IMG/VR virus record: IMGVR_UViG_3300002835_001247
Location: 1-21,845 of that record
DNA: 21,845 nt
Source: a virus
Reading direction: 5' to 3' (one strand)
A program made the translations under genes and the position numbers. This document shows positions 9,158 through 18,771 of the stretch, one piece after another. The first letter of the stretch is position 1, and each line of letters opens with the position of its first letter. The notes below the pieces were generated by a model. That model had not been told where the DNA came from, searched no databases, and saw nothing but the letters and a program-made list of their open reading frames with translations.

Positions 9158-11422
9158 CTAGCAATTAGCATACGGCGCGCCATAATAACCTGAATATGAA
9201 CTACATGGATCTGGATAAAGTCCACAGTTTCCATATTCATCCATACAATAATTAGCGCCACAATATTGACCACATGATGGGGAATTATAATCTACAACGC
9301 TAGATGTTTCTCCTCCAGCACCATCTGCTTCAAACCATATCAATTCGCACCCGTTACATTCAGACCTTAAGAAGGTTCCGGCTGGTGGAATATATTGTAA
9401 AGCAGCTGCTTTAATTTCAAAATTAACAGTAGAGCTTCCTCCTGGATTAACCGAACCGAAGCTATTATCCTTAACAATATAATCTAATCTATTGCCTCCA
9501 ATAACTGGGCTTACGGTCACAGAGTGCTCTGTAATATTTGCTCCCACTGTAATATTTCTCAGCGCAATCATTGCAAGACTAACATCTTCAAATAAATAAT
9601 CACCTTCTGAAGCAATAAAATATTTTAGGTATCTTACTGTTCCGGTATCTGCTGTAATTGTAAGATTAGTAAACAGAGTACCATCTGAATCTGGATCAGT
9701 TCCCAGGTCTAATACACCAGGTGCTATACTTCCATTAATAACATCATCTACAGTCGGATATGATGATATCGTCGGGTATGTAACAGTTGAAACCGGGATT
9801 GGTACTAAAATTCCGGTAAAGTTTGCACTTAATGTTGCAATAGTTCCATTAACTGGCTGGGCAGTAACAGGTACTGAAACATTTATTACAGTATATCTTG
9901 GGCCAGAACCACTAAATGAAGTACTTGGATTTCCTAAATATGAATTTCCTCCATTTCCTATAACAGGCAAACCACTCCAGTAATATCCCGAAGGAGCTGT
10001 AATTTGGAATGAAGGAGAATATGAACCACCTTGTGAAAATGTGCCAACACCTAAAGTATATGGGTTTGGTGAAACAATTCCAGCGCCATCTTGAACTTTA
10101 AAAGTTACATCAGTACTAGGAGCCTGTCCAATTCCACCATCTTGCCAATAACAATTACTCTCTCCTAAATAAATTACTTGAGGTAATCTTTTAATTTTAT
10201 ATGTACTACCACCCGAAGTAGTTTGAATGTCTACTATTGGTGTATCTATTGTTGAAGATATTCCATAAACACCAGGAGAATTAATCGAGGCAGTCATTAA
10301 AATGTCTGCACCTCCTACAATATGAACTCCATTATTTGTAACTGTTCTAGAACCTTGACTATTTGGATTAGTTGAAGCAGTATTATCAGCAATTGTATAT
10401 GAAAATGAATTAAGGTCTGGAACTATATGGTCCCTTGTACCTTTCCAAGTTTTACCGTTGCAGACATACCATCCGTCATAATCGCCAACGCCGCTACCTA
10501 CTTTAAATTTTATTAAATCGTCTGGATTTGCGAGTGTTTCGGTTTGTGTTTTAATAAATTTAGTATCATCATTAAAAACAGATGGAAGAATTGAAATAAT
10601 TGTCCCGTATGGCACAATTCCTCCAAGTTCTTTTATACTTTTAAAAATTATTTTACCGGTATTATTAGATGCTACTGCAATTTTATCAGTACCTGCGGTA
10701 GGATCTTCAATTATTAATTGTTCTTTAACAGTAACTGGTCTATTAAATTCAGTGTCAACATTATATTTAATAACCGAGTCAGTAATCTCTAAAAGAGCAT
10801 TACCGCTTAGATTACTTTTAAATATATGATTTTGTGCGTACCATATAAATGAAGAATTAATTGGATCTTTAAATTTAGATATAAATCTGTTTTTTGAATT
10901 TGACTCTTTTTCTATTACAAAATCAACCCAGTTATTAGTAACATCGCTTGTTGTAAATCTTAAGTTAGAAGAAAAGTGACTTTTTCTATTAATAATCCAT
11001 TGATATGGAACCTGAGCATTATTAACAGGTTGTGCAACGTTATATTCAGAATCACCGCTTGCAAACCCAACACTAACAACCGGCGGGAAAGACATATTTG
11101 GTCTTGGTGGATTTGGCGGAACAGTTACTGGGTTTTGTATAGGAATTATCGTGTCGGCTGATAAATCACTAGGTACTCCTGGTATGTTTTTCCAATATGC
11201 ATCTGTATTAGCACCTGCTAATCCTTGAACTCCTATTACTCCTTGAACTCCTTGATAACCTTGAACACCAGTAACACCCTGCGCTCCAGTGTCTCCTTTA
11301 GAACCAGTAGGTCCTTGCGGACCTCCTCCATTGGCAACAAGTTGATCAAAATTATAATTAATTTTATCAAGTTTTATGTTGTCGCTGTCGGTAAGATTAA
11401 CCTGTTTTAGATTTATTATCAT
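9158..11422 (-). CDS. collagen-like tail-collar fibre with cysteine-rich C terminus
   Basis: A 754-aa fibre protein, paralogous to the 915-aa protein just upstream. It has an N-terminal attachment motif DKINYNFDQL (19-28), then 13 Gly-X-Y triplets (34-72) able to form a collagen-like trimer, then a globular stretch. A phage tail-collar-like domain (about 268-425) follows, with YGTIISILPS, GWYVCNG (317-323) and PDLNSFSYTI. Beta-rich, probably Ig-like or adhesin-like modules follow (430-685). The end is a cysteine-rich tail with eight Cys (689, 692, 717, 721, 726, 733, 740 and the final residue 754). It is probably a receptor-binding or short tail fibre. It has its own TATAAATA box 11 nt before the ATG and is not overlapped by neighbours. 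Confidence 0.8.
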   Translation of the reverse strand: MIINLKQVNLTDSDNIKLDKINYNFDQLVANGGGPQGPTGSKGDTGAQGVTGVQGYQGVQGVIGVQGLAGANTDAYWKNIPGVPSDLSADTIIPIQNPVTVPPNPPRPNMSFPPVVSVGFASGDSEYNVAQPVNNAQVPYQWIINRKSHFSSNLRFTTSDVTNNWVDFVIEKESNSKNRFISKFKDPINSSFIWYAQNHIFKSNLSGNALLEITDSVIKYNVDTEFNRPVTVKEQLIIEDPTAGTDKIAVASNNTGKIIFKSIKELGGIVPYGTIISILPSVFNDDTKFIKTQTETLANPDDLIKFKVGSGVGDYDGWYVCNGKTWKGTRDHIVPDLNSFSYTIADNTASTNPNSQGSRTVTNNGVHIVGGADILMTASINSPGVYGISSTIDTPIVDIQTTSGGSTYKIKRLPQVIYLGESNCYWQDGGIGQAPSTDVTFKVQDGAGIVSPNPYTLGVGTFSQGGSYSPSFQITAPSGYYWSGLPVIGNGGNSYLGNPSTSFSGSGPRYTVINVSVPVTAQPVNGTIATLSANFTGILVPIPVSTVTYPTISSYPTVDDVINGSIAPGVLDLGTDPDSDGTLFTNLTITADTGTVRYLKYFIASEGDYLFEDVSLAMIALRNITVGANITEHSVTVSPVIGGNRLDYIVKDNSFGSVNPGGSSTVNFEIKAAALQYIPPAGTFLRSECNGCELIWFEADGAGGETSSVVDYNSPSCGQYCGANYCMDEYGNCGLYPDPCSSYSGYYGAPYANC
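9161..9361 (-). other. cysteine-rich C-terminal tail of the 754-aa fibre
   Basis: The last 67 residues contain eight cysteines in CNGC, CGQYC, CGANYC, GNCG and DPC contexts, plus many Tyr, Gly and Ser; the protein ends on Cys. The rest of this protein has very few Cys. The spacing suggests a small disulfide-knotted or metal-binding tip at the distal end of the fibre. The paralogous fibre has a Hint domain at the same position. Confidence 0.6.
11207..11323 (-). repeat. collagen-like Gly-X-Y repeat (13 triplets)
   Basis: Residues 34-72 of the 754-aa fibre are 13 uninterrupted Gly-X-Y triplets (GPQGPTGSKGDTGAQG..., then many GVQ/GYQ/GVI). Phage collagen-like segments form trimeric rod sections of fibres. 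The upstream fibre has exactly the same number of triplets. Confidence 0.85.
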
Positions 11423-11479: not shown

Positions 11480-14227
11480 TTATTCTGGCGATATTCCTTC
11501 TATCGGCGCAACTTTATTATGGGTTAGTATACCATTTGCAATAAATAAATCGTTATCTTCAACATCTAAATTATAAACTCTAAAGTTTCCTCTAAAAATA
11601 TCTATAATTTCTATTTCTATTTCTTTACCATTTTGGTCTAATAAATAATCTCCAATTTTAATTTCGTTACCTTTAAGAATTCTCCAAATACCATCTTGTT
11701 TAATAACATGTAAATGATCTTCTGATGAAATTATTGTTTTGTTATTAAATGAGAAAACATGATCTACGTTGAACATTACAATATTTTTTAATTCTACCGA
11801 ATCATTTTGTAATTTTATATCTTCGGAATCTCTCCAATCTAATATAGTTTGATCCTCTTTAATTGGCATACCTTCTATTATTTTACTAGATAAAATATCG
11901 CCAATTTTTAGGTTTTCTATTTTATTTAAAGTTCCATCATTCATTAATATATTTGTTCCTTCTAGTAAACATCCAGTTCCAGTGTCTCCAGTACCTGTTC
12001 CAGAATCAAAACCAGTACATAGACTAACAATGCCTATAGTTCCTGATGTTTGATTAATTGGAGAGCTATATCCGCCCGGAAGGTCGCTGTTATATATTCT
12101 TTTCCAAGGAGAAGAATATCCAGGCGCGTTTTGACTAATTACATTAACTAATGCTGGTGTAACGCTTTCTGTTGCCGTTACCCAATTCATAGGAACATAA
12201 ACTTCTTTTCCTTCAAATTCATATATTGAAGTATAACCGCCAATATAAGTAGAAGAAGAGACATACGCAAGGGAAGGTGTTTTAATAACTAAAAGACTAC
12301 ATGCTGCTCTAGGAGATGTTGTATTGTTAAAAAACGTGGTGTTGTCTAACGAATCTTTAATTAAATAAATATAATCTTCAGTAAAAGAAAATCCTTGAAA
12401 GGAAGAACCATTCCAATATCTTCTAACACCAGTTACAATATCTCTATACCAATTTGCAGCTGGAATAAAACCGCCTATGCTTAATGTAGTTGCATCACTA
12501 AATGATGGATAATCTATTGTAAACTGCAAAGGAAATTGTAAGCCATTAGCAGGCCCGTTTAGTCCTCTAATTTCTTCAGAAAGCGCTAAATTTCTTGTAT
12601 ATGTAATTGATATAACACATGTATTTGGAGCGCCAAATGTCTGTGTTGAAGCATTCCAATATCTCCATACTTTTGTTGCAACATCAATATAGTGTCCTGT
12701 TGGTGCAAAGTTTGTGGTTCCATTGTTATATAAAAATATTCCTCCAGCACTCTGGTTAAATGATGCCCATGTCCCGTTTGTACCGCTCCATGCATATTGA
12801 TTTGCGGTTGTTACATCACATATTCCGTTAGGCGAGGCTCCATTTAATAAAATATATCCTAAAGAAATCTGATTAGTTGTAGGGGGAACTACTGTAGAAC
12901 TTGATTGCGACCATGTTAAATTTTCATTTTCTAAATAGACAACGTGGATCATTCTACCTACATACGAATTATTACTAGAATTACCAAGAAGTATGCTATC
13001 GTCCTGATTTCCAGCGGTGTCTACTGATATGTTATATAAGCCATTATTATAAGCAGCGGTCATTCCTATTTTATAACCACTTACTAAAATTTTTGCATTA
13101 TCTCCGCCATTGATTTGGTTTTGATCTCCTCCATTAGGTGCAATTGTAAAATCAAAAGAATTCAAATTTGGTGTTAAAATACTATTAACTCCCGGTGAAA
13201 TCTCCCAAGATTCTCCATTACATAAATACCATCCTGCAAAATCAGTGCCTGATTTTCCTCTTCCGAACCTATTTTTAAGTGTAGGTAGAGGACTTCCAGA
13301 TTGGCTTATACTTTCATTTAGAAAAAAATTGTCAGAATTAAAATCAGATTCTCTAATAGAAATAATAGAACCGAATGGAAAACTACCAAAAACAGATTTT
13401 TTATCTCTCCAGTTTGAAGTCCCTTGGGCATCGTCAGAAACTAAAACATAATCAGACTGCGCTCCCTTACTATAATTAAAAGTATGCTTTGATTTTGTAA
13501 ATTTTCCGGTTGAGTTACTCAGTATCGCAGTTGCAACACCCGAATTAATTATATTCGGCCTAGAATTTATTTTTATTAAAGTATCATTGATTTCATGAGG
13601 TAATGTTTCGCCATTATTTTGCGGCGTAATTGACCGAATAATACTGTCTTTTGCAATATGTACTATTTCAAACCCAGATTCTCCTGAAGTAAATTTACCA
13701 ATATGCAGCTCTAATACAGGACCTATCTTTACTAATTTATAATCAGAAACTTTGTCGTCGCTCTGAAGTCTTAGATTAATTTTTGGACTTTTTGAACTAG
13801 GTGATGGTTTAACATTTCCTAAAACAACATAGTCATAATAAGAACTTGGTGTGTTGTATCTCGGATCGGTTTCATCAATACCAATTCGCATTACAACTGG
13901 AGAATATTCTAAATTAGAATTAATATTCTTTTTAGTAAATAAATAAGGGGTGCTACTTATAGTATCAGCATAAAAAACCCAGTCATTTATGGCGTACGCA
14001 CCCTGAAGTCCTTGAGGTCCTTGCGGCCCTTGAGCGCCCTGAGGTCCTCTAAATCCTTTAGGTCCAAAATTACCATCTGGACCTATATGTCCCTGAGGTC
14101 CAGGCATACCCCCGTTAGATAATTGATAAAAATTATAGTTAACTTTATCTATTTTATCTTTAGATAACCATACACTGCTGTTAGGATCTAGATCACTTTT
14201 AAATAACTCTTTGATGTCAATCGCCAT
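11480..14227 (-). CDS. collagen-like tail-collar fibre with C-terminal Hint (intein-like) domain
   Basis: A 915-aa fibre protein. In order: attachment motif DKVNYNFYQL (27-36); 13 Gly-X-Y triplets (40-78); a beta-rich stem; a tail-collar-like domain (about 284-437) with FGSIISIRES, GWYLCNG (332-338) and PNLNSFDFTI; two related modules ending VWRYWN (520-525) and VRRYWN (601-606); a Gly/Thr linker (GTGTGDTGTG, 743-752); and a Hint domain from Cys753 to His903-Asn904, then an 11-residue tail KVAPIEGISPE. The collagen, collar and attachment parts are homologous to the 754-aa fibre downstream. It should trimerise as a tail fibre. The Hint domain predicts self-cleavage that would shed the C-terminal part or join the fibre end to a nucleophile. 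Its stop is 57 nt before the next gene; its ATG lies 2 nt after the previous stop. Confidence 0.85.
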   Translation of the reverse strand: MAIDIKELFKSDLDPNSSVWLSKDKIDKVNYNFYQLSNGGMPGPQGHIGPDGNFGPKGFRGPQGAQGPQGPQGLQGAYAINDWVFYADTISSTPYLFTKKNINSNLEYSPVVMRIGIDETDPRYNTPSSYYDYVVLGNVKPSPSSKSPKINLRLQSDDKVSDYKLVKIGPVLELHIGKFTSGESGFEIVHIAKDSIIRSITPQNNGETLPHEINDTLIKINSRPNIINSGVATAILSNSTGKFTKSKHTFNYSKGAQSDYVLVSDDAQGTSNWRDKKSVFGSFPFGSIISIRESDFNSDNFFLNESISQSGSPLPTLKNRFGRGKSGTDFAGWYLCNGESWEISPGVNSILTPNLNSFDFTIAPNGGDQNQINGGDNAKILVSGYKIGMTAAYNNGLYNISVDTAGNQDDSILLGNSSNNSYVGRMIHVVYLENENLTWSQSSSTVVPPTTNQISLGYILLNGASPNGICDVTTANQYAWSGTNGTWASFNQSAGGIFLYNNGTTNFAPTGHYIDVATKVWRYWNASTQTFGAPNTCVISITYTRNLALSEEIRGLNGPANGLQFPLQFTIDYPSFSDATTLSIGGFIPAANWYRDIVTGVRRYWNGSSFQGFSFTEDYIYLIKDSLDNTTFFNNTTSPRAACSLLVIKTPSLAYVSSSTYIGGYTSIYEFEGKEVYVPMNWVTATESVTPALVNVISQNAPGYSSPWKRIYNSDLPGGYSSPINQTSGTIGIVSLCTGFDSGTGTGDTGTGCLLEGTNILMNDGTLNKIENLKIGDILSSKIIEGMPIKEDQTILDWRDSEDIKLQNDSVELKNIVMFNVDHVFSFNNKTIISSEDHLHVIKQDGIWRILKGNEIKIGDYLLDQNGKEIEIEIIDIFRGNFRVYNLDVEDNDLFIANGILTHNKVAPIEGISPE
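11516..11971 (-). other. Hint/bacterial intein-like self-processing domain
   Basis: Residues 753-904 of the 915-aa fibre, 152 aa, too short to hold a homing endonuclease. Block A is CLLEGTNILMNDGTLNKIEN then LKIGD (Cys1 nucleophile, G(T)xI(L), KIGD). Block B is IISSEDHLHVI, a Ser in place of the usual Thr in TxxH with His838 conserved. KIGDYLLDQNG is a second repeat of the fold. The end is RVYNLDVEDNDLFIANGILTHN, matching intein blocks F and G, with penultimate His903 and terminal Asn904. The +1 residue is Lys rather than Cys, Ser or Thr, so classical splicing is not expected; N-terminal thioester cleavage and C-terminal Asn cyclisation remain possible, as in bacterial intein-like domains. 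Confidence 0.88.
13994..14110 (-). repeat. collagen-like Gly-X-Y repeat (13 triplets)
   Basis: Residues 40-78 of the 915-aa fibre: GMPGPQGHIGPDGNFGPKG and on to GPQGLQGAY, 13 uninterrupted triplets rich in Pro and Gln. It is the same length as in the paralogous fibre, and lies immediately after the shared N-terminal attachment motif. Confidence 0.88.
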
Positions 14228-14229
14228 TA

Positions 14230-17200
14230 TTATGCTTGTATTTTCACATGGATTTTAAAATTATAAGAATATCCAAGTCTTTTATTATATATTAGTCTAA
14301 AACTCAAGCCATCATTTTGATAACCTTGAATGTTAAAATTAGTTAATTGTTTAAAATTATTATTAGTTAGTTCGCTAGTACTTAACACCGGTAAAAAATT
14401 AGTAGTTAAATCTTTGCCTTCAATTCCATATATAAATATTCCATCAATAATAAATCTAGGTGAAATATTTGCTTTTGCATAAAGTTTTAAATCATCTTCA
14501 ATTGTTGATTTATCTCCAAAAGAATTACTAGCATTTACATATTTTTTAAAATATTTTCTAATTCCATCCTCGATTAATTCTTCTAATATTGCATCTGGTA
14601 AATAAAAATCAGCAATTATCTGTGAATCATCTTCATACCAATGAATTGTTTCAGTATTAGAGTTATTGCTTCTAACTTTATCTAAAGACTCTATTGAATT
14701 TTCTTGTACATTTGTATATTTTGTAATGTCATAACTGTCTCTAACTTTCATTATTGTCGACGCTAAAAACGATTTCTTTTCAATCGGACTTAAGGTTCCA
14801 AATACGGGAGTAGAATTACCAGCTGCCAGTGATTTTGTAAAATAATCAACCGAATATTTTGACTCAAATACGTTAACATCTTTTTTATCAATTGCAATTT
14901 CAGAAATAGCAGGATATAGCGGCAATTTATCAGTAGTTTGCGATAGCTTTAATATATTTTTTGAATCTTCGTCATTTGCTTTATGATAAAAATAATTTTT
15001 AATAACACCATATTCGGTATTATTTATTTTATATGAATCAAATGAAATTCCAGTATCGTTAAATTTATTATAAATTGCTTTTTCTTTTGCAGGATAATTG
15101 TTAACAACTTTGTTACGAGAATATACATCTGAGAAAGTTACAACATTATTAAATAAAGGAGTATAATCTCCGTTCATTCTTCGTAACAGTGTAATATATC
15201 CTCCATCTTCTCTATTTACAATAATACTACCAACTTCTCCTTTAGATAATTGATATGCTTTAGGTTTATCAGGATCTGTTTCAGACTTAACAAGAGATGG
15301 TTTAATTACATCAACACCTGATTCTATAGCTAAAACATAATCATTATTTGTAATTGTACCGTCAACTCCAACTGTTACATAGTCAATTTCTCCATATTTA
15401 TTAAATCTTTTAGCAAAATTATAAGCGTTTATTTCATTTAATAAAATGTTAAATCCATTACGGCCACCTTCCCAATAATAAAAATTAGATTGTATAGATA
15501 TTAGTGAGAATTGATTTGGATTAATTCTAAAATTAGCATTTGCAATTCCGGTCAGCGGATCAAATTGATATGGCCATCCAGAAACTCTTATTGTATCTTT
15601 ATCAATCACATTAACAACTTTAACAGCATAATTATCCCCTAATGCAGGAAACCAAATCCAAGAATATTCTCCAAACTCATCTTGCTTTATGTATTTAGTA
15701 AAATCTGGAGTAACTACCGAAAATTGAGAAGATTTTAAAGTAGCTTCTTTATTTCGATCTACTGGATCAAAACCAGCGCCTGGAAGATTTTCTAAGGTAG
15801 AACCTGGGAAATCTATATAAAAATCTACTTTAGTATCAACATTTATTTGCGCGAACTGAATATCTTTTAAAGTGTACAGTTTATATCTGTCTAAATATTT
15901 TATGTCATTATTAATCATATTTAATTCAATAACAACACATATAAATTTAAACTTGTCGTTTTTAATAGAACTTATTTTAATTGAATTTGATATAATAGGA
16001 TTCTCTGCACTTGAAACATTATATGTTAACACAACACCAAATTTATAATCATTGATGTTTGAATCAGATATAAATTCAGTAGGAACTTCATTCAATGTCT
16101 CTTTTCTTTTTAGGTATTCATATCTAAGTCCTCTAAAAACAGTTGATGAATTCTTTTCAGAATTACCTATATTAAATTTGGTCCAAAGTCTTTTATATTT
16201 ATTGTCATACCACTTTGATACTTGCACCTCACCAGGCTCTATTCTAGATACGTTTTTTCCAAAGTAACCATTCCAATTAAAATGTCTATCAAAATAATCA
16301 AAATCAACGCTTTTTAGTTTGTTAATTGTTATTCCTCCATCATCGGCAAAATCAACATAATTATTAAAGTCAAGTCCATCCTCCCCACTATTATACCTTA
16401 ATCCCTGTGGTATATTATTGATATGAAAGTGTTCCATATTCATGTACTCGACCCTTCTAGGAGAATCAATTTCTATATTTGGAGAAAGATTATCTTCACC
16501 AAAAGCTTCATTAACATTTAAAATGTATGGTAAGTTTCTTGCATTAGATGCGTCTTTTAGATTAAATTTACAAACTGTTGGAACAACCCTGCTCATAAGA
16601 GCGGTTTCTTTTAATTGATTTTCATTTAACCTATTATATTCATTTTTAATATTAGACTGTTCTGTCTCCGTTTGTATTTTTTCAGCTTCAAGCACTGGAC
16701 TTAATCCAATATAGAATCTAAAAGGATCTACATATTCTGCCAAAAATTTAGCAACATTAGGCGTCGATATTGCATCAACATATGACGGATTTTCAATATT
16801 GTATGTGTTACTTTTATCATATTCTAAATCGCCTAGATCTGAATTTCTTTCTGAATAAAAATCAAAATCAAAGTCCTTAATATCGTACGCTGAAAACCGG
16901 CCATGAGTAACTAAATAATTATTATAAATTTCAAAAGTATTATCGTTTGAAATTTTAACTTTAGAATTTAGTATAATTCTATAAGAATCATTTTCAATAG
17001 GATCCTTTTCAATTTCTATAATTTGAATAAAGTTGTTTGAGTCTTTTTGTTTTACCCATTCGCCAATATTAACATTTCCAAGATCGCTTGACTTTACAAG
17101 AATAGATTGGCCCTCTTCGGAACCTCCAATCATTGTATATATGTTCCAATCGCTAAAAACAGTATTAGTGCTTGATGGAACTATCGAATTTACTAGTCCA

Positions 17201-18771
17201 ATATTGTTATATTCTCCTGAATCAACTTGTATAAAATCAACTAGGTTTGGAATATAGACTCCAACTGCGTTTTGTCTTCTTCTATTTCCAGCAGCGTAAT
17301 CTTCAATAATAATTGAAGTATCAATAACCTTAGTTTTATAAGAAACAATTTCTCCATTATTAATAGCAGCAGCAATTGCTATTGCGATCTGCTGTAAACT
17401 TCCTCGGTTAGAAAATTTGTTACCGATTGCTCTTCCTGGTTGAATTGAATTTGACGCTAAAATAACGTAGTCTCCTAAGTTATATTTTGAAATTTCAATT
17501 TCAGTTTTGTCTCCAATAAAGATTCTGTCATTTTGAGATGGAACGTCTTTCACTGTTAATTTAACAAATCCTCTTGGATTTGGCGCAATACCCGAAGAGG
17601 TTATTATTTTACCCGTCTTCGCATATCCTTCAAACTCATTTATTTTTCCAGCATCTAAATTTATTACTAATTTATAATATGGATTATTTGTAGCGCCTAT
17701 TAAGTTGTACAATTCTCCATTTTTGTCTTTAATATACCTAAGAGATGGTATTTCAAATTCACTATTTAAAGGAATCATGTCATTGGCAGACAATCCAGTT
17801 TGTTGCAAATTATAAAAACTTTTGTAGCTATTAGGTTTTATGCTAATAACCCCACTAGAATTTACACCATCTGAAACAAATGAACCCTCTTCCACTGCAT
17901 CAACATATAAACCAAAATATCTGTATATTTTATAATCAGTTGCGGTCGCATCGTCAAATAAAAATTCTAAATTTATTAAATTAGCAGAAACAATACCATT
18001 TCTTTCAAATCCATTGGTTATTGTGTCATTGCTAAAAATCTCAGGGTAATCAACCTGTGTATAGTATTTGTCTAATTGTTCAGCCTTAGAAGTAAAACCT
18101 CCATTAACTATATCAATTCCATTAAACGTAGATTGAGAACCCTCTTTAAAATTAATACTTAAAGGAGATTCTGGAAAATATTTGTCATTTACGTGATTAT
18201 TTAAGTATTCACCTAACTTAGAAGATTTACTAAGGTCAAATGTTTTAATTATAGTAGCATTTTTAAGAAGCTCTAAAATTCTACCAGTCTGACCCTGGTT
18301 ATCATCAGTATAATCTCTGTTATAATCCGTATTTTCAACTCTATAAACTACAAACTTTGAAGGAACTTTCTTTTCGAGCCATATTGGTGCAAATATCTTA
18401 TATTGCTCATCATATAGCTTTGTTGAATTTTGAATAGCTCCTGCAATATATTGATCTTCATATTGAAACTCATAATCTGAATAAACTGTAGTATCTGGGT
18501 ATAGTCTAAGGGTCTGGTATCTGTCTGTTAAAGGAAGCCCTCTATAAAATGATGCAACATCGTAAGAATACCTTCCAGTATGATTGATCTCGCGTTTTTG
18601 ATATTCTATTTTAGAAAGTTCCTTGTTGGCTTTAAATGCGCTTAAAAATAAATCACCGAATGAACTAACAAGTAACTTAATATTACTTGTTAGTTTTGGG
18701 TTTGTTCGCAATAAAGCAAATGATTTGTTATCTATTGAATTATTTTCAATATCTGTATTAATTATAGCCAT
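14230..18771 (-). CDS. very large virion structural protein of unknown family
   Basis: A 1513-aa protein, the longest complete gene here. The N terminus is MAIINTDIENNSIDNKSFAL, followed by helical segments, an aromatic-rich region (RYSYDVASFYRGLPL, 67-81), then a long succession of beta-rich, Asn/Asp/Tyr-rich segments, ending in a compact all-beta stretch (RLIYNKRLGYSYNFKIHVKI). No signal peptide, transmembrane segment, collagen repeat or catalytic motif is visible. Size, composition and position between two other structural genes and the fibre pair suggest a baseplate wedge or fibre-attachment protein (T4 gp7 or gp10 would be positional analogues), but I see no sequence motif that proves this. 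It is preceded by a late-promoter-like box, and its stop lies 2 nt from the Hint-fibre start (TAATAATG), so the fibre is probably co-translated. Confidence 0.65.
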   Translation of the reverse strand: MAIINTDIENNSIDNKSFALLRTNPKLTSNIKLLVSSFGDLFLSAFKANKELSKIEYQKREINHTGRYSYDVASFYRGLPLTDRYQTLRLYPDTTVYSDYEFQYEDQYIAGAIQNSTKLYDEQYKIFAPIWLEKKVPSKFVVYRVENTDYNRDYTDDNQGQTGRILELLKNATIIKTFDLSKSSKLGEYLNNHVNDKYFPESPLSINFKEGSQSTFNGIDIVNGGFTSKAEQLDKYYTQVDYPEIFSNDTITNGFERNGIVSANLINLEFLFDDATATDYKIYRYFGLYVDAVEEGSFVSDGVNSSGVISIKPNSYKSFYNLQQTGLSANDMIPLNSEFEIPSLRYIKDKNGELYNLIGATNNPYYKLVINLDAGKINEFEGYAKTGKIITSSGIAPNPRGFVKLTVKDVPSQNDRIFIGDKTEIEISKYNLGDYVILASNSIQPGRAIGNKFSNRGSLQQIAIAIAAAINNGEIVSYKTKVIDTSIIIEDYAAGNRRRQNAVGVYIPNLVDFIQVDSGEYNNIGLVNSIVPSSTNTVFSDWNIYTMIGGSEEGQSILVKSSDLGNVNIGEWVKQKDSNNFIQIIEIEKDPIENDSYRIILNSKVKISNDNTFEIYNNYLVTHGRFSAYDIKDFDFDFYSERNSDLGDLEYDKSNTYNIENPSYVDAISTPNVAKFLAEYVDPFRFYIGLSPVLEAEKIQTETEQSNIKNEYNRLNENQLKETALMSRVVPTVCKFNLKDASNARNLPYILNVNEAFGEDNLSPNIEIDSPRRVEYMNMEHFHINNIPQGLRYNSGEDGLDFNNYVDFADDGGITINKLKSVDFDYFDRHFNWNGYFGKNVSRIEPGEVQVSKWYDNKYKRLWTKFNIGNSEKNSSTVFRGLRYEYLKRKETLNEVPTEFISDSNINDYKFGVVLTYNVSSAENPIISNSIKISSIKNDKFKFICVVIELNMINNDIKYLDRYKLYTLKDIQFAQINVDTKVDFYIDFPGSTLENLPGAGFDPVDRNKEATLKSSQFSVVTPDFTKYIKQDEFGEYSWIWFPALGDNYAVKVVNVIDKDTIRVSGWPYQFDPLTGIANANFRINPNQFSLISIQSNFYYWEGGRNGFNILLNEINAYNFAKRFNKYGEIDYVTVGVDGTITNNDYVLAIESGVDVIKPSLVKSETDPDKPKAYQLSKGEVGSIIVNREDGGYITLLRRMNGDYTPLFNNVVTFSDVYSRNKVVNNYPAKEKAIYNKFNDTGISFDSYKINNTEYGVIKNYFYHKANDEDSKNILKLSQTTDKLPLYPAISEIAIDKKDVNVFESKYSVDYFTKSLAAGNSTPVFGTLSPIEKKSFLASTIMKVRDSYDITKYTNVQENSIESLDKVRSNNSNTETIHWYEDDSQIIADFYLPDAILEELIEDGIRKYFKKYVNASNSFGDKSTIEDDLKLYAKANISPRFIIDGIFIYGIEGKDLTTNFLPVLSTSELTNNNFKQLTNFNIQGYQNDGLSFRLIYNKRLGYSYNFKIHVKIQA

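Follow-up and report, generated by a model that had tools for sequence, protein, structure and literature searches.

A Hint domain at the C terminus of a phage collagen-like tail fibre and a conserved lysine in its tail

Described Hint systems and the fibre of the window

The BIL2 domain of the Tetrahymena thermophila BUBL1 polyubiquitin locus (PDB 6TMM, 6Y75) has a Hint fold, a native Cys1 and a terminal Asn (the solved construct is C1A-N143A). It lies between two ubiquitin-like domains and is reported to join a lysine side chain, located on the downstream one, to the upstream C terminus by an isopeptide bond (PMC8616854). A-type BIL domains, such as CthBIL4 (PDB 2LWY), are defined by a His-Asn end, the absence of a +1 nucleophile and a location in variable regions of non-conserved host proteins (PMC7765530, PMC5874633); they also have Cys1 and the block B His. 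Class 1 inteins, including those of phage terminases and helicases, have the Hint fold, Cys1, TxxH or SxxH and His-Asn, together with a homing endonuclease, a +1 Cys, Ser or Thr, a completing C-extein and a conserved insertion site. The Hedgehog Hog/Hint domain (PDB 1AT0) is C-terminal, has Gly at -1, forms a thioester with the secreted or structural part that precedes it and is followed by a sterol-recognition region. Phage tail spikes and fibres have another known self-removing C-terminal domain, the intramolecular chaperone Peptidase_S74 (PMC10579305), whose fold and chemistry are unrelated to Hint.

The window (the whole stretch of DNA analysed) is a 21,845-base record of an uncultured virus. 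By gene order and protein matches its kin are large phages (LR756500, Lak phages, and Tenacibaculum and Chryseobacterium phages), and on the same grounds its host is likely a member of the Bacteroidota. The relevant features are as follows.

14230-18771, minus strand: conserved 1513-aa protein, upstream neighbour of the fibre and anchor for orthologous loci; no function from family searches, probably a baseplate or tail component
11480-14227, minus strand: fibreA, 915-aa collagen-like tail-fibre gene that carries the Hint domain (ORF; PHROG tail-fibre matches over the collagen part; orthologues in about 70 related loci, gene order kept)
13994-14110, minus strand: Gly-X-Y collagen repeat, fibreA residues 40-78 (Pfam Collagen E 1.4e-5, slightly under the gathering score)
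12017-13420, minus strand: fibreA body, residues 270-737, ending at Cys737 (alignment; AlphaFold model)
11972-12016, minus strand: Gly/Thr/Ser/Asp linker, residues 738-752, with Gly752 at -1 (lacks a counterpart in Hint-less orthologues; disordered in the model)
11516-11971, minus strand: Hint (Hedgehog/intein) domain, residues 753-904 (profiles, AlphaFold, Foldseek)
11969-11971, minus strand: Cys753, predicted to act as nucleophile in the N-S acyl shift (conserved as Cys in 41 of 45 non-redundant family members)
11714-11716, minus strand: His838, block-B histidine of SxxH (His in 43 of 47 family members)
11516-11521, minus strand: His903-Asn904, motif for C-terminal cleavage by Asn cyclisation (His 47/47, Asn 46/47)
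11483-11515, minus strand: 11-residue tail KVAPIEGISPE, in which Lys905 (11513-11515) is the proposed acceptor amine (Lys in 39 of 40 non-redundant short tails)
9158-11422, minus strand: fibreB, paralogous collagen-like fibre with a Cys-rich C terminus and no Hint (the orthologue in L095 and L100 bears the Hint instead)

The fibreA body contains two GWYRD..RRYWNG (DUF2510-like) repeats (window 12008-13420), and 7 of the 24 fibreA orthologues scanned have a Pfam DUF2510 match. Its AlphaFold model has a pLDDT of 84, and no PDB relative was found by profile, or by fold at E 0.001. The preliminary description of this DNA called the protein a collagen/collar fibre. The collagen repeat stands, but neither the window fibre nor the 24 orthologues scanned have a Pfam tail-collar match, and a collar domain is not supported. 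Peptidase_S74 (PF13884) has no match in the window fibre either. The neighbouring fibreB ends in a 40-residue tail with six cysteines, and its orthologues in L001 and L002 end otherwise; fibre C termini vary greatly within the clade of the window.

The Hint domain had been placed at 11516-11971, and these limits are exact: the codons of Cys753 and Asn904 lie at 11969-11971 and 11516-11518. The catalytic residues are also present in the 915-aa ORF as previously read, namely Cys753, the SxxH histidine (block B is Ser835-Glu-Asp-His838), His903-Asn904, then Lys905 as the first of 11 following residues. Profile searches bear the assignment out. TIGR01443 (intein_Cterm) matches with 29.3 bits against a cut-off of 15.6, and Pfam PT-HINT (PF07591) matches with E = 3.5e-5 and 24.5 bits, slightly below its gathering threshold of 27.7. 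A profile of the family described below matches solved BIL domains and inteins in the PDB with E values down to 7e-16. The AlphaFold model of the domain, made from 30 family members, has a pLDDT of 89 and a pTM of 0.84, with linker and tail disordered; Foldseek places BIL2, CthBIL4, inteins and the Hedgehog Hog domain among its best PDB folds. Judged by profile and modelled fold, the domain is a member of the Hint superfamily, far beyond chance and with intact catalytic residues, and its nearest solved relatives are Tetrahymena BIL2 and Clostridium BIL4. BIL2 is the best PDB match (profile 7e-16, fold 1.5e-10), at about 22% identity and with additional sequence separating blocks A and B; CthBIL4 is the second-best PDB protein by both measures.

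By its sequence the domain has every testable feature of an A-type BIL. It has the fold with blocks A, B, F and G, and it ends in the conserved His903-Asn904, the terminal Asn being a BIL and intein feature. Lys905 stands at +1 in place of Cys, Ser or Thr (in the family, 9 of 47 members have Thr there, one Ser and one Cys). The domain occupies the variable end of a non-conserved protein, being present in 4 of 48 non-redundant orthologous fibres. As in BIL2, there is a lysine downstream of the domain. The family differs from BIL2 in that the proposed acceptor belongs to a tail 1-27 residues long and a phage fibre forms the upstream part, and from A-type BILs in its position at the extreme C terminus of virion proteins and in its conserved tail lysine. 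No report of such a lysine in A-type BILs was found in the open-access literature.

The definitions of inteins, Hedgehog domains and pretoxins, as far as sequence can be compared, do not fit. The domain lacks a homing endonuclease, has neither a +1 Cys, Ser or Thr nor a completing C-extein, and does not occupy a conserved insertion site, being fused past the natural C terminus of the fibre. Hedgehog-like lipidation is ruled out because the 11 residues that remain contain no sterol-recognition region; unlike the Hog domain, which also ranks lower by fold (3e-6), the window Hint keeps the terminal Asn. Toxin release of the PT-HINT kind is likewise ruled out, since only the 11-residue tail follows the Hint.

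An added module on fibres that are complete without it

Orthologous loci were gathered via the neighbouring 1513-aa protein. The four Hint-bearing fibres among the 48 non-redundant complete fibres at this position fall in two separate clades and, as we read the sequences, these two lineages acquired the domain independently. The closest Hint-less fibres stop where the window linker starts, frequently at a Cys resembling Cys737. Two contigs from the same clade, L095 and L100, carry the Hint on the adjacent fibre gene instead. Comparison with homologous fibres agrees with the earlier view that this is not an intein that restores a host protein: the +1 residue is Lys, and most orthologous fibres have no Hint and end before the linker. 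The tail matches the C terminus of no Hint-less orthologue and is therefore not a cut-down C-extein, and an intein remnant is ruled out because linker and tail are both foreign to the fibre. By these alignments the Hint was recruited onto fibres complete without it and is not an inserted intein.

Between the window and L009/L077, the Hint has a synonymous divergence of 0.33, compared with 1.2-1.5 for the remaining fibre. Compared with 393 background windows of 152 codons from the operon, the Hint has a value of 0.27, slightly under their minimum of 0.276 (median 0.59). This low divergence, with sharp edges at codons ~750 and ~900, suggests that the module has been swapped as a cassette; low divergence is also seen elsewhere in the operon, so the mosaic is general. 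The dN/dS of the Hint is ~0.29, so the domain has been kept functional by purifying selection.

In LR756500, a distant relative, the fibre gene at the corresponding place ends in Peptidase_S74. This fibre aligns to the window fibre only over a short N-terminal stretch, and as a parallel to the Hint this one case is only suggestive.

A family of C-terminal phage Hints and their tail lysine

Iterated searches found 47 IMG/VR loci with a related Hint. In about 40 cultured Erwinia, Dickeya and Yersinia jumbo phages and in phage NCTB, a virion or tail protein ends in a related Hint and is followed by collagen-like fibre genes. Phage tail and virion proteins closed by a Hint are thus, on sequence similarity, a widespread family. 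The fibre as a whole gives a much narrower result: a direct search found only a relative matching at 80% in the Hint and one partial match, and among named phages only NCTB, via its Hint. A tblastn search of named phages with a more distant HNK-ending Hint found no match. The invariant motif DVExND carries no weight here, having served as the retrieval pattern, and a repeat search with it mostly re-found the 47-locus set.

The catalytic residues are retained across members that are 20-30% identical. Cys1 is kept in 41 of the 45 non-redundant members (of 47) that have a residue there, the exceptions being three stand-alone paralogues and one Ser, and most members share a Trp and an Asn located between blocks A and B. 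Position +1 varies freely (K in 15 of the 47, T in 9, F in 5, A in 4, and others). Tails are mostly 2-27 residues long, most of them at most 11. Gly is favoured at -1 (26/41 against a 10% background), and it occurs there in 21 of 40 short-tailed Hints vs 7 of 83 long-tailed, intein-like Hints.

Several variants occur. Stand-alone Hints of ~155 aa (L006:744-1205, L032:7474-7941, L036:7474-7941) have lost Cys1 and the block-B His and keep His-Asn; in NCTB-like jumbo phages these genes lie between the Hint tail protein and (in NCTB) the collagen fibre genes. A 484 kb phage (L061, LR756508) encodes a divergent C-terminal Hint in which Gln replaces the block-B His and the tail is the two residues KH. 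In a prophage of Pontibacter aydingkolensis (L141:3395-6528), a 262-aa Hint-ended protein directly follows an S74-ended tail fibre, and this bacterium is a possible cultured host for experiments.

Lysine follows the His-Asn in 39 of 40 non-redundant short-tailed Hints (combined sets, <60% identity). The expected number is 16.8 (P 3e-16), or 18.5 with a strand-matched control (P 2e-14); both controls use the C termini of other genes in the same loci, and the P values are indicative, as they assume independent tails and relatedness persists below the 60% cut. Base composition, translation signals and gene-end bias are ruled out as sources of the lysine, since the excess survives both controls. 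The rule was noticed in the first set (<70% identity; 32 of 33 tails, expected 14.4, the single exception having no Cys1) before it was tested. Two later sets are cleaner but small. They were collected from loci with the DNA patterns ANGI.[TV]HN and ADGI.VHN, which are blind to the tail, and counted over short-tailed Hints with Cys1 and a +1 residue other than Cys, Ser or Thr; lysine is present in 11 of 12 (expected 3.7) and in 5 of 5 (expected 1.05; four of the five are new).

All 14 tails of at most four residues contain lysine, and five non-redundant Hints end HNK-stop, with nothing further after the Asn. The first lysine is at +1 (13), +2 (12) or +6 (7), or scattered elsewhere, over a range of +1 to +9. 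Other residues of the short tails, arginine included, are not enriched, so charge alone fails to explain the lysine. The window and L009 have diverged tails, in which the lysine is retained (at +1 and +2). A single short-tailed Hint that retains Cys1, L221 (QLHQHDYN), lacks lysine. In the first independent set, 158 of the 166 long-tailed Hints carry Cys, Ser or Thr at +1. In the bacterial genomes sampled, the +1 residue of Hints followed by a long C-terminal part is A, S, N, Q, G or R; the only additional Hint whose protein closes with HN and a short tail continues as KILNPN...

Intein-domain annotations in tail proteins already exist (NCTB, Y3, Yoloswag), and traces of C-terminal Hints in the literature are annotation-level notes and uncultured-phage entries titled 'Hint domain containing protein'. 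Neither the C-terminal Hints of phage fibres as a family nor the tail lysine is described in the mainly open-access literature searched. The lysine rule is the main new result.

Predicted self-excision and the fate of the thioester

Established Hint chemistry yields a thioester at Gly752-Cys753. Here we predict that Cys753, aided by His838, attacks the Gly752 carbonyl to form it. With no Cys, Ser or Thr at +1, a BIL hydrolyses or finds an amine; from the tail lysine rule and the lysine chemistry of BIL2, we propose that the side-chain amine of Lys905 attacks the Gly752 thioester. Asn904, with His903 assisting, would then cyclise and free the Hint. The product would be a fibre that ends at Gly752 and is capped by the tail peptide via an isopeptide bond. 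The likely purpose, by analogy, is maturation, in which a transient C-terminal domain is removed after fibre folding, as S74 chaperone domains are elsewhere. S74 aids trimer folding; we know of no such role for Hint.

We regard self-excision of the Hint from the fibre as highly probable. Joining of the tail lysine to Gly752 by its side chain has, in our judgement, about an even chance, and we are equally divided over the explanation as a whole (A-type BIL module, lysine splicing, maturation). The conserved lysine, its free position, the lack of arginine enrichment and the favoured Gly at -1 fit a BIL2-like step. The scatter from +1 to +9 suits a flexible nucleophile and also a looser role, and L010 has Pro at -1, a residue generally thought poor there for the acyl shift.

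The strongest competitor, though unlikely, is plain self-trimming, in which water hydrolyses the Gly752 thioester, Asn904 cyclises, and the tail lysine merely assists as a base or by electrostatics, leaving a trimmed fibre much as S74 removal does. The fibres are complete without the Hint, BIL domains yield mainly cleavage products (PMC7664689), and a lysine outside the motifs is reported to activate the N-terminal junction in the Tko CDC21-1 intein (PMC4031507, PMC5874633). Yet a base with a fixed role should sit at a fixed position, whereas the lysines are spread over +1 to +9, and the absence of arginine enrichment makes charge insufficient.

The preliminary description was right to treat attack of an amine on the Gly thioester as a serious option, as the reported use of lysine by BIL2 indicates (PMC8616854). 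Its Hedgehog-like version, in which the fibre is linked to a glycan, the host surface or another virion protein, is not supported: the conserved lysine in the Hint's own tail indicates an acceptor within the same polypeptide, and no sterol-recognition region follows Asn904. One variant makes the tail lysine obligatory and has it attack the thioester of another chain, in trimeric or neighbouring collagen-like fibres, which would be covalently stapled or tagged by a widespread, ATP-free and self-acting phage isopeptide system; we consider this improbable. Conjugation elsewhere, in which an amine or hydroxyl of another fibre chain, a virion protein, a glycan or the host surface attacks the thioester and so fixes the fibre tip covalently, also seems improbable to us. 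BIL2 reportedly links the ubiquitin-like domain that precedes it not only to its own C-flank but also to other proteins (PMC8616854), Gly is favoured at -1, and the jumbo-phage Hint proteins adjoin two collagen-like fibre genes. However, the conserved nucleophile is within the same polypeptide, the conserved Asn904 would sever the tail from the Hint, no partner-binding domain lies past the Hint in these mostly short-tailed proteins, and the majority of related phages have no Hint.

An inert module (an intein remnant, or a Hint serving as a structural cap and uncleaved in the virion) would suit the Hint-less majority of orthologues, but is very improbable given catalytic residues kept between members of such low identity, purifying selection on the Hint, +1/+2 lysine and -1 Gly patterns that have no structural reason, and a tail unlike the C terminus of Hint-less orthologues.

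If the lysine rule reflects chemistry, side-chain splicing would be the means of self-processing for a large class of phage tail proteins that has mostly gone unnoticed; to our knowledge, such splicing has so far been reported only for the ciliate ubiquitin locus. The predicted mature ends of many phage fibres would change, those of the cultured Erwinia, Dickeya and Yersinia phages among them, and there would be a second fibre-maturation chemistry beside S74 domains. Such Hints might also provide compact, cofactor-free domains that attach a protein C terminus to lysine. The earlier view that this maturation would be unusual for a tail fibre needs qualifying, as phage tail proteins commonly end in a Hint and S74 self-removal is known.

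Two further arrangements were found. Some uncultured phages encode tandem Hints a few residues apart (HNR..PPGGPC and similar), the last of which is HNK-stop (L349:575-1969, L411:5730-7949, L309:56-1624, L506:2-1090). Fibre-like proteins of another group (L024, L025, L031, L039, and also L026-L029 and L042-L044) have an internal Hint with Lys-Gly from +1, followed by ~100 residues that are fn3/Ig-like in L024; release of this C-terminal domain is possible.
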